A stretch of DNA of 64,000 bases, taken from NCBI RefSeq assembly GCF_030823375.1, contig NZ_JAUSXB010000001.1, positions 3,162,001-3,226,000 on the forward strand, in the 5' to 3' direction. The notes under the pieces were generated by a model. The model was not told the origin of the DNA and ran no database searches. It saw only the letters and a program-made list of their open reading frames with translations. This document shows, piece by piece, positions 9,597 to 63,220 of the stretch (position 1 is its first letter; every line of letters begins with the position of its first letter). The position numbers and the translations under genes are program-made. This DNA comes from Pseudarthrobacter siccitolerans. GTDB taxonomy: Bacteria > Actinomycetota > Actinomycetes > Actinomycetales > Micrococcaceae.

Positions 9597-9714
9597 GGCT
9601 GGGACATTTCCCGCGTGCTGCTCCTTCATCCCCACTGGCACCCTAGCCTCGCAAGCTCGGCCAGGGAACCCTGCCAGCGTGGGCCCTCAAGCACGCTACG
9701 TAAATGTCCCAGCC
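9597..9714. repeat. Composite element: H33 hairpin nested in the loop of an H20-type hairpin
   Basis: Outer arms GGCTGGGACATTT (9597-9609) and AAATGTCCCAGCC (9702-9714) are perfectly complementary. Inside, GCGTGC pairs with GCACGC and the H20 asymmetry (CCC against TACGT) is kept. The loop begins TGCTCCTTC as in H20, but then holds an H33 element: CTGGC (9635-9639) and GCCAG (9673-9677) around a 33-nt loop. That loop differs at two positions from the loops at 35877-35909 and 35931-35963. Confidence 0.8.
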
Positions 9715-24853: not shown

Positions 24854-24896
24854 GGTAAAGTAGTGGGGCCCGTCACAGCGACCCCACTACTTTACC
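24854..24896. repeat. Perfect 15-bp inverted repeat between gudD and the MFS gene
   Basis: GGTAAAGTAGTGGGG (24854-24868) and CCCCACTACTTTACC (24882-24896) flank a 13-nt loop. No T-run follows on the coding (minus) strand. On the minus strand the loop region reads TCGCTGTGACGGG, close to TCGCTCTGACGG of the H20 loop, so it could be a distant member of that family. Confidence 0.8.
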
Positions 24897-35848: not shown

Positions 35849-35870
35849 GTGGCGGGCACCGACAATCCCC

Positions 35871-35977
35871 GCCCGCACCCTAACCTCGCACGCTCGGCCA
35901 GGGAACCCTGCGGGCGTGGGCCCAGCCCGCACCCTAACCTCGCACGCTCGGCCAGGGAACCCTGTGGGCGTGGGCCC
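35871..35977. repeat. Two tandem H33 hairpin elements, 54-bp period
   Basis: Unit 1: GCCCGC (35871-35876) pairs with GCGGGC (35910-35915). Unit 2: GCCCGC (35925-35930) pairs with GTGGGC (35964-35969) through one G-T pair. The 33-nt loops (35877-35909, 35931-35963) are identical and contain CCTCGCACGCTCGGCCAGGG. Outer GGGCCC blocks pair across a conserved one-sided GT bulge. The copy at 9635-9677 has the same loop with two changes and the stem CTGGC/GCCAG. Confidence 0.85.
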
Positions 35978-60311: not shown

Positions 60312-60791
60312 GTGATCATCGAAAAAGTCCTCGGCAACCTGCACGAACTGCCGGACCCGCACGCCTATGCCAACCTGCACCAGGAAAAAGTGGTCCTGCC
60401 CAGCGCCCAGCTGGTCAAACGCATCCAGCGCGCCACCACCGACCACGGCAAGGAGATCGGCATCCGGTTGCCCTCCGGCGCCGGCGACCTGCGCGACGGC
60501 GACATCCTGCACGTGGAAAAATCCAACATGATCGTGGTGTCAGTGCTGCCCACCGACGTGCTGGTGATCGCGCCCCGTTCGATACACGAGATGGGCGTCG
60601 TGGCCCACTCCCTCGGCAACCGGCACCTCCAGGCCCAGTTCTTCGACTCGGCGTCCGAGTACGGGGCCGACGTCATGGTGTGCGCCTACGACCACACAGT
60701 CGAGGACTACCTTCGCCACGTCGGAGTGCCCTACACCCGCCAGGAACGCGTCATGCCTGTGCCTTTCCGCCATGCTGAGCATTCGCACTAA
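60312..60791 (+). CDS. ureE: Urease accessory protein UreE
   Basis: Nickel chaperone, 159 residues. The N-terminal peptide-binding domain (MIIEKVLGNLHELPDPHAY) is followed by the metal domain with AHSLGNRHLQAQF and CAYDHTVEDYLRHVGVPYTRQERVMPVPFRHAEHSH. The C-terminal tail has only three His, not the long poly-His tail of Klebsiella UreE. GTG start with GGAG 10 nt upstream. Confidence 0.94.
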   Translation: MIIEKVLGNLHELPDPHAYANLHQEKVVLPSAQLVKRIQRATTDHGKEIGIRLPSGAGDLRDGDILHVEKSNMIVVSVLPTDVLVIAPRSIHEMGVVAHSLGNRHLQAQFFDSASEYGADVMVCAYDHTVEDYLRHVGVPYTRQERVMPVPFRHAEHSH

Positions 60792-60827: not shown

Positions 60828-60891
60828 GACGGGAGATAGGGGCCGTGCCCGCTTCGCGGTGCCCACCACGCCGCGGCCCCTATCTCCCGTC
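60828..60891. repeat. Intergenic hairpin element, 28-nt-loop family (H28), copy A
   Basis: A perfect 18-bp stem (GACGGGAGATAGGGGCCG, 60828-60845, against 60874-60891) encloses a 28-nt loop (60846-60873; starts TGCCCGCTTCGCGG, ends CCACCACGCCG). Loop plus the adjoining GGGGCCG/CGGCCCC, 42 nt in all, is identical in reverse orientation at copy B. The outer 11 bp differ. A further GGGCTTT/AAAGCCC pair lies outside (60821/60904). Confidence 0.9.
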
Positions 60892-60932
60892 TCCGCCGAT
60901 CCAAAAGCCCACCTTTTGTCGAGGTGCTTGTC

Positions 60933-61598
60933 ATGAATTACCAGCTTGCCTTGCAGCAATTGGTTGATTCCGCTTTGCCTACTGGGGCTTTTGCGCACTC
61001 CTTCGGTTTTGAGAGCTATGTTGCTTCGGGGGTGGTCGCTGATGAGGCTTCTTTTGGGCGGTGGCTCTCAGCGTTTATTGGGCAGCAGTTGACCTATTCC
61101 GATGGCCTTGCCGTTCGGTTTTTTTATGAGGGCTGGGATGTTGGGGAGCTGGATTCTTTGCTCTCTGCTTCGCTTTTGCCTCGGCAGGTTCGGGAGGCCT
61201 CTGTCAAGATGGGCTTGCGGCTGCTGGAGATTGGCAGTGAGGTGTTTCCGTCGACTGAGCTGGGGGTGTATCGGGACTTGGTGACCAACGGCTGCGCCGC
61301 GGGGCATCAGCCGCTGGCGTTCGCCGTCGTCGCCCGTTCGCTCGGTGTGCCGCTGCGGGAAGCGCTCGCCGCCTACCTTTTCGCCACCGTCACGTCCCTG
61401 ACCCAGAACGCCGTCCGCGCCATCCCACTGGGGCAGAACGCCGGCCAGCGGCTGCTGCGGCAAGCGGCCGACGACGTCGCTGCCGCCGTCGAATGCATTC
61501 CGCACCTGACGCCGGACGACTTCGGGGCCGTCACCCCCGGACTCGAAATTTCACAAATGCGGCACGAACGCCAACGTGCACGGATGTTCATGAGCTAA
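60933..61598 (+). CDS. ureF: Urease accessory protein UreF
   Basis: 221 residues, all-helical UreF: MNYQLALQQLVDSALPTGAFAHSFGFESYVASG at the start, NAVRAIPLGQNAGQRLL and PHLTPDDFGAVTPGLEISQMRHERQRARMFMS at the end. Part of the UreDFG nickel-insertion complex. ATG 60933 has GAGG 8 nt upstream; GTG 60924 is in frame but overlaps that site. Codons in the first ~120 residues end mostly in T or G (GCT, TTG, TTT, GTT), unlike the C-ending codons of its own second half and of ureA-E. Confidence 0.94.
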   Translation: MNYQLALQQLVDSALPTGAFAHSFGFESYVASGVVADEASFGRWLSAFIGQQLTYSDGLAVRFFYEGWDVGELDSLLSASLLPRQVREASVKMGLRLLEIGSEVFPSTELGVYRDLVTNGCAAGHQPLAFAVVARSLGVPLREALAAYLFATVTSLTQNAVRAIPLGQNAGQRLLRQAADDVAAAVECIPHLTPDDFGAVTPGLEISQMRHERQRARMFMS

Positions 61599-61628
61599 CT
61601 GCGCTTTTGGCTTTCTTAGGAGGAAACA

Positions 61629-62246
61629 ATGACTGAACCCATCAAAATCGGCATCGGCGGACCGGTGGGCGCCGGCAAGACCCAGCTCGTGGAGCGCCTC
61701 ACCCGGCACATGAGCGGCGAAATCTCCATGGCCGCCATCACCAACGACATCTACACCATCGAGGACGCCAAAATCCTCGCCGCCAACGGCATCCTCCCCG
61801 TAGACCGGATCATCGGGGTCGAAACCGGCGGCTGCCCGCACACCGCCATCCGCGAAGACACCTCCATGAACACCGCCGCCATCGAGGAACTCAAAGCCCG
61901 GCACCCCGACCTGCAGGTCATCTTCGTCGAATCCGGCGGCGACAACCTCTCCGCCACCTTCAGCCCCGAACTCGTCGATTTCTCCATCTACATCATCGAC
62001 GTGGCCCAAGGCGAGAAAATTCCGCGCAAAGCCGGCCAGGGCATGATCAAATCCGACCTCTTCATCATCAACAAAACCGACCTCGCCCCACACGTCGGGG
62101 CGGATTTGAATGTAATGGAGAAAGATTCGAAGGACTTTAGAGGGGATAGGCCTTTTTGTTTGACTAACCTGAAAACTGACGAGGGCCTGGACAAGGTCAT
62201 TGAATGGATCCGGCACGACATCTTAATGCTCGACCTGGCGCAATAG
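61629..62246 (+). CDS. ureG: Urease accessory GTPase UreG
   Basis: SIMIBI GTPase of nickel insertion, 205 residues. P-loop GPVGAGKT (11-18), metal-binding CPH in [15 protein letters not shown], and [24 protein letters not shown] precedes ATG. Codon usage is strongly C-ending up to ~62095, then the last ~35 codons turn AT-rich with rare AAA, AGA, AGG, GTA and TTT codons, just before hairpin copy B. Confidence 0.96.
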
Positions 62247-62295
62247 ACATGGCTGTGGACCTGCGTAAAGGTGACGTACTCGCTGAGGCGGCGAG

Positions 62296-62356
62296 GCCGG
62301 ATTTGGGGGCCGCGGCGTGGTGGGCACCGCGAAGCGGGCACGGCCCCAAATCCGGC
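62296..62356. repeat. Intergenic hairpin element, 28-nt-loop family (H28), copy B (inverted)
   Basis: GCCGGATTTGGGG(G)CCG (62296-62312) pairs with CGGCCCCAAATCCGGC (62341-62356), a 16-bp stem with one bulged G. The 28-nt loop (62313-62340) is the exact reverse complement of copy A's loop. The outer stem (GCCGGATTT against AAATCCGGC) shares no sequence with copy A's outer stem but is fully complementary. Confidence 0.9.
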
Positions 62357-62390
62357 GAAGCCGGCGGACCCAACCACGGACGAGCACTCA

Positions 62391-63220
62391 TGGGGGAGCT
62401 TGAGCTTCGGGTCGCCTTGCGCGGTCAGCGTTCAGTTGCGGCGCATCAGTACCATCGGGGCGCTTTGAGGGTCCTTCGCCCGCACTATCTGGATGACTCC
62501 GGGCAGGTTTGTTATGTCGTTGTGAATCCGGGGGGCGCTTATCTTGGTGCGGACCTGTTTGTCCTCGATGTTGAAGTCGGGGACGGTGCTGACCTTTTGC
62601 TCACCACCCAGTCCGCCACGAAGGTTTACCGGACTCCTGGTTCGTTTGCTGAGCAGCGGATGAGCCTGCGGCTGGGGGAGGGGGCCCGGCTGGAGCTGGT
62701 GCCCGACCAGCTCATTGCCTACCGGGAGGCCAGCTACCGGCAACGGACCTCCGTGACGGTCCGGCCGTCGTCGAGCCTGGTGATGGCTGAAGTGGTGACT
62801 CCGGGGTGGTCTCCGGACGGAGCCGCTTTCCGGTACGAGGAAGTGCGGCTGCGGAACGCGATCCACGTTGAAACGGACGAAGGCAGCCGGCTCCTGGCGC
62901 TCGACAACCTGCTGATCCGGCCACCGATGGGGGATGTCACCGGGCTGGGGTTCATGGAGGGTTTCAGCCACCTCGGGTCGCTGATCGTTGTCGACGCCCG
63001 CGTGGACCCGGCGCTCGCGGATGAGCTTCACCACCTAACGTCGGTGCATGACGCCTTGACCGGTATTTCACTGACCCGCACCGTCGAGGGAACCACCGGC
63101 CTGGTCCTTCGCTCTCTCTCCAACAGCACCGGAGAACTGAACCTCCTTCTCGGCGCCTGCACGGCCCTCCTCCGCAAGCAGTGGTACGGGCAGGAACCAC
63201 TGGACCTGAGGAAGCACTGA
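62391..63220 (+). CDS. ureD: Urease accessory protein UreD
   Basis: 276 residues from ATG 62391: MGELELRVALRGQRSVAAHQYHRGALRVLRPHYLDDSGQ, then LLTTQSATKVYRTPGSFAEQRMSLRLGEGARLELVPDQLI, typical UreD. An in-frame ATG at 62249 directly after ureG would add 47 residues (MAVDLRKGDVLAEAARPDLG), but these are mostly translation of hairpin copy B, so 62391 is preferred. As in ureF, the first ~90 codons end mostly in T or G and later ones in C or G. It overlaps the next start by 1 base. Confidence 0.92.

Follow-up and report, generated by a model that had tools for sequence, protein, structure and literature searches.

An apparently undescribed family of intergenic hairpins with a conserved tip and variable, paired stems in the urease cluster of Pseudarthrobacter siccitolerans and related soil bacteria

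Two Hairpins in the Urease Gene Cluster

The window analyzed here, i.e., the whole stretch of 64,000 nucleotides taken from Pseudarthrobacter siccitolerans, contains a urease gene cluster with the order ureC-E-F-G-D, in which the genes were named from NCBIfam and Pfam profiles. Two of its intergenic gaps hold a hairpin, referred to as A and B.

60312..60791, + strand: ureE, left neighbour of A (NF009757)
60828..60891, + strand: element A (type I, short form), an 18-bp perfect stem in the ureE-ureF gap
60845..60872, + strand: conserved 28-nt core of A (GTGCCCGCTTCGCGGTGCCCACCACGCC)
60933..61598, + strand: ureF, between A and B (PF01730)
61629..62246, + strand: ureG, between A and B (TIGR00101)
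62289..62363, - strand: element B including its outer helix and internal loop (type I, short form; ureG-ureD gap)
62296..62356, - strand: hairpin B without the outer helix
62314..62341, - strand: conserved 28-nt core of B
62390..63220, + strand: ureD, whose start lies 3' of B (PF01774)

The longest string shared by A and B is exactly 42 nt (7 + 28 + 7) and is found in opposite orientation (60839-60880 in A on the + strand; 62306-62347 in B, read on the - strand), as the initial annotation of this DNA had claimed. In A, 18 bp pair perfectly and enclose a loop of 28 nt. B has 13 perfect bp around a 35-nt loop and reaches 16 bp with one bulged C, so that the perfect pairing attributed to both hairpins holds for A and needs qualifying for B. 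The stems of A and B differ beyond the 42 nt, as claimed; to say that their arms have nothing in common there is slightly too strong, as both follow a loose pattern, recurrent genus-wide, in which an A/T-rich patch is succeeded by GGGG and, next to the loop, by CC. Placing B inside a possible extension of ureD was a mistake: B sits in the ureG-ureD gap, the UreD frame starts at 62390, and the open reading frame from 62204 is merely an open upstream frame.

The 28-nt core (up to 3 mismatches) had no match in 100 dinucleotide shuffles of the 64-kb window, and the DNA folding z-scores were -5.8 for A (+ strand) and -2.8 for B (- strand). The strand that reads GCCCGCTTCGCGG, hereafter the reading strand, is the ure operon strand at A and the opposite strand at B; the proposed folded strand, i.e., its complement, is thus the - strand for A and the + strand for B. 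The GCTTCGC in the core of A reads GCGAAGC on the - strand, a mini-hairpin of the GNA type.

Copies of the Element in Related Bacteria

The 4.5-Mb genome of this strain carries four copies of the element: A at ureE|ureF, B at ureG|ureD, one between grpE and dnaJ and one after glpK. The grpE-dnaJ copy, whose neighbours were named by profile match, has a core with 3 mismatches; the glpK copy was recovered by a covariance model and not by the core pattern, and the next model matches had E values of at least 0.19. Among 198 congeneric genomes, 137 contained the core (up to 3 mismatches), and the reversed-pattern control had none among the matches listed. There were at least 117 core-bearing stretches, and the 80 named matches listed were mostly from Arthrobacter, Pseudarthrobacter and Paenarthrobacter, plus one from Psychromicrobium. 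In a draw from the family, the covariance model matched 29 of the 245 genomes, with 8 of 32 genera represented; genus and family searches over 40 genomes ran under stricter filters, with weak matches lost. A draw from the order (n = 297 genomes, family members included) gave 8 matching genomes, 2 of them outside the family (G464 and G544). A spread beyond the family was rejected, as both of these matches look, by eye, like conserved coding sequence.

The copies occupy orthologous sites in many species: ureE|ureF (EF), ureG|ureD (GD), after grpE, before dnaJ, after glpK and scattered others. The 151 distinct elements that passed the arm filter are distributed as EF 49, GD 56, grpE-dnaJ 22, glpK 10 and others 14, the filter being poor for the bulged glpK type (10 there, compared with 41 in a site-by-site listing). 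Most glpK-site copies are separated from the end of the gene by about 40 or 75 nt. The initial annotation had made its structural reading depend on further copies with complementary arms; further copies were found, and nearly all of them have arms that pair.

A search of plasmids returned 16 records at E up to 1, and only two replicons of Arthrobacter sp. StoSoilB13 were convincing (NZ_AP024649.1 and NZ_AP024648.1, listed as plasmids of 1.0 and 1.35 Mb), with about 93% identity to A over 42-47 nt. With respect to a phage origin, no match was found in 50,697 phage records.

Repetitive extragenic palindromes (REP/REPIN) and tagged palindromic repeats are, according to Di Nocera et al. (2013; PMC3733652), small intergenic palindromes that often lie between co-directional or convergent genes and sometimes form close inverted pairs. 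The element resembles them in being a small intergenic palindrome and in forming close inverted pairs, which were seen in two genomes of the family draw. The initial annotation had suggested, as one candidate, a REP-like element moved by a RAYT, i.e., a Y1 HUH transposase. The RAYT profile PF01797, which as a control matched 5 of 14 known genomes, had no match in this genome and matched 2 of 198 congeners (1 over the cut-off), against 137 of 198 with the core; a recognisable RAYT (PF01797) encoded in this genome is excluded. Compared with the repeats of PMC3733652, the present element differs in that the tip is conserved and not a tag at the base, the stems are unlike, no RAYT was found and there are about four short copies. 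The constant GTAG/CGTC tag was not found at the base of the stem, where the bases differ between elements by eye and only in A the stem end happens to read CGTC, and the high copy number of REPs was not found in this genome, which has 4 significant copies of the element. A RAYT-moved REP/REPIN is thus a very unlikely identity for A and B.

Stems That Keep Their Pairing but Not Their Sequence

Each element consists of an outer GC helix with a small internal loop, a varied complementary stem of 12-25 bp and the conserved core. Of the 39 elements extracted, 36 were aligned, with L047:2952-3014 and the two rows of L034 left out; 31 of the 36 are type I. The proposal that pairing is kept without stem sequence was confirmed: in the 31 type I elements, 15 of 17 pairs had two-sided changes, and the covariation was 0.564, compared with 0.148 in shuffles. 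None of 500 shuffles was as high, and slid controls reached at most 0.199.

Complementary arms (aligned score of 9 or more) were found in 144 of the 149 core-selected elements from pattern-fetched loci. The five failures were four long forms mis-cut by the search pattern (L034, L162, L188 and L192) and one tip duplication (L217). With letters shuffled, 35 of 2980 control arms (1.2%) scored as paired; when the arm of one site was joined to that of another, 535 of 2306 did, because many stems share GGGGCC. When a one-base bulge was made cheap, 1508 of the 1524 inner pairs in 127 elements were Watson-Crick, 8 were A.C, 8 were other and none was G.U, and 29 of the 127 stems used the bulge; with a dearer bulge, 16 G.U appeared, 15 of them at one position. 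The resulting 98.9% Watson-Crick is an upper figure, because the 127 elements were pre-filtered for at least 8 paired bases. The inner nine positions were paired in 97.8% of cases and, after arms had been shuffled between elements, in a mean of 75.4%.

Related species have glpK-site stems that are unlike over some 20 bp around an unchanged core. A comparison of 20 distinct stems gave 27 single-pair differences, and 17 of these are transversion pairs, which no wobble intermediate can bridge. Such changes from one Watson-Crick pair to another without wobble intermediates are what is expected of template switching. In RNA genes, according to Monttinen and Loytynoja (2022; PMC8794818), template switching gives coupled double substitutions and creates and maintains stems. 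The two-sided changes observed here are compatible with this process, which would make them in one step (PMC8794818). Both systems have coupled double substitutions in perfect stems; in contrast to the RNA genes treated in PMC8794818, the present elements are palindromes between genes, their stems are long and their tip is conserved, and they show whole-block inversion and allelic replacement.

A Long Form and the Dispersed Repeat R

In some core-less genomes the same sites carry a long form, which reads GTGCCC, a hairpin repeat of about 60 nt (R), and then GCGGTGCCC...CACGCC. The tip of the core is thus either a GCGNAGC mini-hairpin (short form) or the roughly 60-nt R (long form), on the same stems. 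Long forms are found at glpK and grpE as well, with stems that resemble the short ones there. R is dispersed in the genome of this strain, with at least 28 matches at E up to 10 and 15 below 0.01; these counts are lower bounds because no more than 4 candidates per genome were scored and the window copy at 35865 was missed. As far as the copies were read, R lies mostly in gene gaps. Two places in the window, one of them a third hairpin, carry R.

9597..9714, + strand: third window hairpin, R (about 9629-9686) in an unrelated outer stem (L293, E 0.037; stem by eye)
35865..35976 (ends approximate), + strand: two tandem divergent R copies

The outer stem of the third hairpin comprises 13 bp (9597-9609 with 9702-9714) and 7 bp (9613-9619 with 9690-9696), unlike the stems of A and B. 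R resembles miniature inverted-repeat transposable elements (MITEs) and other interspersed repeats in being dispersed and mostly in gene gaps, a likeness that does not extend to established terminal repeats or target duplications.

In the 26 loci that had both ure sites filled and passed the filter, 10 were short/short, 16 mixed and none long/long; a long/long ure locus exists outside the filtered set (L221). Within a genome, the loops of A and B were identical in 4 of 10 same-form pairs, compared with 1.7 expected (p = 0.08), and at this p value we do not claim concerted evolution of the two loops. A simple deletion was likewise rejected as the step that turns a long form into a short one, as the boundary repeats do not yield the CTTC of the latter. 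In L229, the ureE-ureF gap holds tandem repeats of the GGTCGAGCGGACTCCGCC type followed by a degenerate R copy where A would sit.

Changes at the Sites between Species

Mapped on an 87-row ureF-ureG tree, the EF stem changed at least 23 times (45 rows) and the EF form at least 10 times; at GD, with 53 rows for each count, the minimum was 28 changes of stem, 17 of form and 7 of orientation. Support is below 80 on 28 of the 84 inner branches, which can inflate these counts, and a row was left unlabelled if its element did not pass the arm filter. The orientation is constant at EF (49 of 49 distinct elements), at glpK (10 of 10) and in the grpE-proximal copies, and 8 of 56 distinct GD elements are opposite. 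The flanks of the opposite GD elements (5 opposite and 16 same rows compared) had identities of 0.49 and 0.72 in the orientation of the element, vs. 0.31 and 0.36 if swapped. Loop inversion is described in PMC8794818 as a by-product of template switching in RNA hairpins; a pure loop inversion at GD was ruled out, as the outer flanks move with the hairpin.

The element is also often absent. Of the 61 core-less genomes, 30 were examined; ureG was found in 25, and 17 of 24 intact loci had a hairpin at neither ure site. In one genome (G030), the ureG match falls in two adjoining pieces (L242 and L243), the gene being apparently frameshift-broken.

Two loci with 99.3% identical ureF-ureG (L052 and L209) carry different hairpins around an identical core, and the divergence is confined to a local tract that sets in directly behind ureG and extends into the first part of ureD. 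We read this as allelic replacement by recombination. Four further elements (L110, L214, L188 and L236) have arms of two types and look like crossovers within the common loop. In L054 and L277, an inner stem and loop of the EF type lie inside GD-like outer flanks, on both arms.

These rearrangements would also be the products of a site-specific recombinase, or of one that acts on a folded single strand, if the hairpin were its target (an attC-like or invertase substrate) and the GD inversions and block swaps resulted from its action. The 7 or more orientation changes at GD, the preference for one strand described below and a structure that is kept while its sequence varies would all fit such a target. 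The tract swapped between L052 and L209, however, extends into ureD, as in ordinary homologous recombination, and we regard a recombinase target as quite improbable.

Strand Bias and the RNA Explanations

Over all sites, with 124 distinct stems counted per site, the non-Watson-Crick pairs on the reading strand were 35 A.C to 6 G.U, so that the wobble pairs sit on the complement. This count covered 164 of 169 elements (149 of the 169 from loci fetched by pattern and 20 from loci fetched by structure model), and 145 of the 169 were distinct over the core and 25 nt on each side. The ratio was 26:4 in the pattern-fetched loci only and 4:1, not significant, in elements opposite to their gene. The apical hairpins of R, counted where at least 6 of 9 pairs form, gave 34 A.C to 6 G.U at positions 1-8 in 41 distinct stems; position 9, taken as outside the helix, was reversed (17 G.U and 7 A.C). 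The binomial probabilities, about 5e-6 for 35:6 and about 8e-6 for 34:6, ignore kinship among stems, and 5e-6 is optimistic because the stems are related. Overall the strand bias is significant, resting on related stems. At EF, deamination of cytosines on the coding strand would work against the observed bias.

On the complement, the tip of the short form reads GCGAAGC or GCGGAGC, once GCGTAGC (in the related loop of L098), and L083 departs from this. DNA mini-hairpins of the d(GCGAAGC) type are extraordinarily stable, and we take the GCGNAGC tip on the proposed folded strand to be the GNA form of these unusually stable structures, a likeness of sequence alone.

The initial annotation had also proposed a structured RNA in the urease mRNA. 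This is weakened by the two orientations at GD, by copies outside urease operons and by A.C, not G.U, on the strand that is co-directional with ureE-ureF. More generally, the reading strand might form an mRNA hairpin of its host operons, i.e., a terminator, an attenuator or a stabilizer of 3' ends or processing products, with the loop kept for a ribonuclease or a Rho-type factor. The position in intra-operon gaps and at mostly fixed distances after glpK, together with the constant orientation at EF and glpK, would suit this explanation, and four glpK copies (L132, L150, L167 and L171) resemble bidirectional terminators in that their stem is preceded by an A-run and followed by a T-run, which makes this explanation slightly more probable. 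We still hold an mRNA hairpin to be unlikely: no T-run, as expected of an intrinsic terminator, directly follows the stem of A or B on either strand, the mispairs of the reading strand are of the A.C kind, and many ure loci have neither site filled or, in others, carry the element inverted. A perfect 15-bp hairpin with a 13-nt loop at 24854-24896 of the window is terminator-like and unrelated to this hairpin family.

The GCGNAGC strand could instead give rise to a structured RNA (small, antisense or protein-binding), of which the conserved tip would be bound and the stem would only hold the tip. The strong covariation, the preference for G.U over A.C on this strand in the outer stems and at positions 1-8 of R, and the stable RNA fold computed for two composite long forms argue for such an RNA, and the constant orientation at EF, at glpK and of the grpE-proximal copies could also fit an RNA function. 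At EF and mostly at GD, however, this strand is antisense to the ure operon, GD has both orientations, and pairs of the A.C or G.U type make up only a small share of the whole, 41 of the 2746 non-gap pairs in the alignment. A search of Rfam gave 13 weak matches for the short form, all far below the gathering score, and no match at E up to 1 for the long-form loci. An RNA from this strand is doubtful on balance.

Proposed Origin and Maintenance of the Hairpins

We tentatively propose, with a probability of about 0.48, that A and B belong to a REP/MITE-like family of small palindromic DNA elements that sit between genes in Micrococcaceae, are reshuffled by recombination and have their stems kept paired by template switching and by selection on one folded strand. 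The family and its sites, its covariation, the alternation of forms, the two orientations and the local allelic replacement emerge from comparison of the sequences, and from them we infer transposition and template switching. Both arms would travel together on one recombination tract; new stem sequences would arise through coupled changes of the two arms, by replication template switching in the palindrome; and the remaining variants would be purged by selection, or by a mechanism, directed at the one strand that folds, which is complementary to ...GCCCGCTTCGCGG.... The one-strand fold would be the target of selection, and the element would persist at the level of DNA, as a selfish or tolerated palindrome, through its single-strand fold and not as a urease regulatory RNA. 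Unlike the dispersal of R, the mobility of the short element is conjectural; a genome has few copies of this form (4), and for the most part these are inherited at their sites.

Among the suggestions of the initial annotation, the closest to this proposal is a copying mechanism under which loop and pairing are kept and the stem sequence is not, and it agrees with the apparent replacement of whole hairpin alleles that share a loop, the transfer of stem and loop seen in L054/L277 and the two-sided changes. A variant, which we consider unlikely, is that the hairpins are mobile elements recognized at the tip and not at the base, by a factor that acts on one folded strand with GCGNAGC (or R) and tolerates any complementary stem. 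Tip and stem would then evolve as separate modules, with tips swapped between short and long and stems exchanged or rewritten on both arms.

Covariation is usually taken as strong evidence for a functional RNA, and the Arthrobacter hairpins warn against that reading. Here one hairpin can be followed through dozens of species in a dense natural series of orthologous copies. Its two arms change jointly, with hardly any wobble intermediates, and for one case or more a comparison of two loci demonstrably points to allelic replacement. The series may thus serve as a test of how palindromes keep their pairing, i.e., by selection, by template switching or by recombination.

The hairpin family of these Arthrobacter-type soil bacteria is apparently undescribed: no earlier description was found in the open-licence literature, and PMC4807237 only cites CRISPRFinder and contains no earlier description of it. 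The present comparison puts these repeats on record for a common lineage of soil bacteria. Their family probably extends beyond the set defined by the core, as five loci (L095 of the same genus and L096-L099 of other Micrococcaceae) have a related but different loop of the GCCCGCTTCGCGG.CGCCCGAAGCC type on unlike complementary stems. Before dnaJ in the genome of this strain (L003, 1330-1432) lies a strong hairpin with 16-bp arms and a 71-nt loop that contains a nested 17-bp hairpin. Its position is about where other species carry a type I element, in opposite orientation, and it is perhaps a third loop type.
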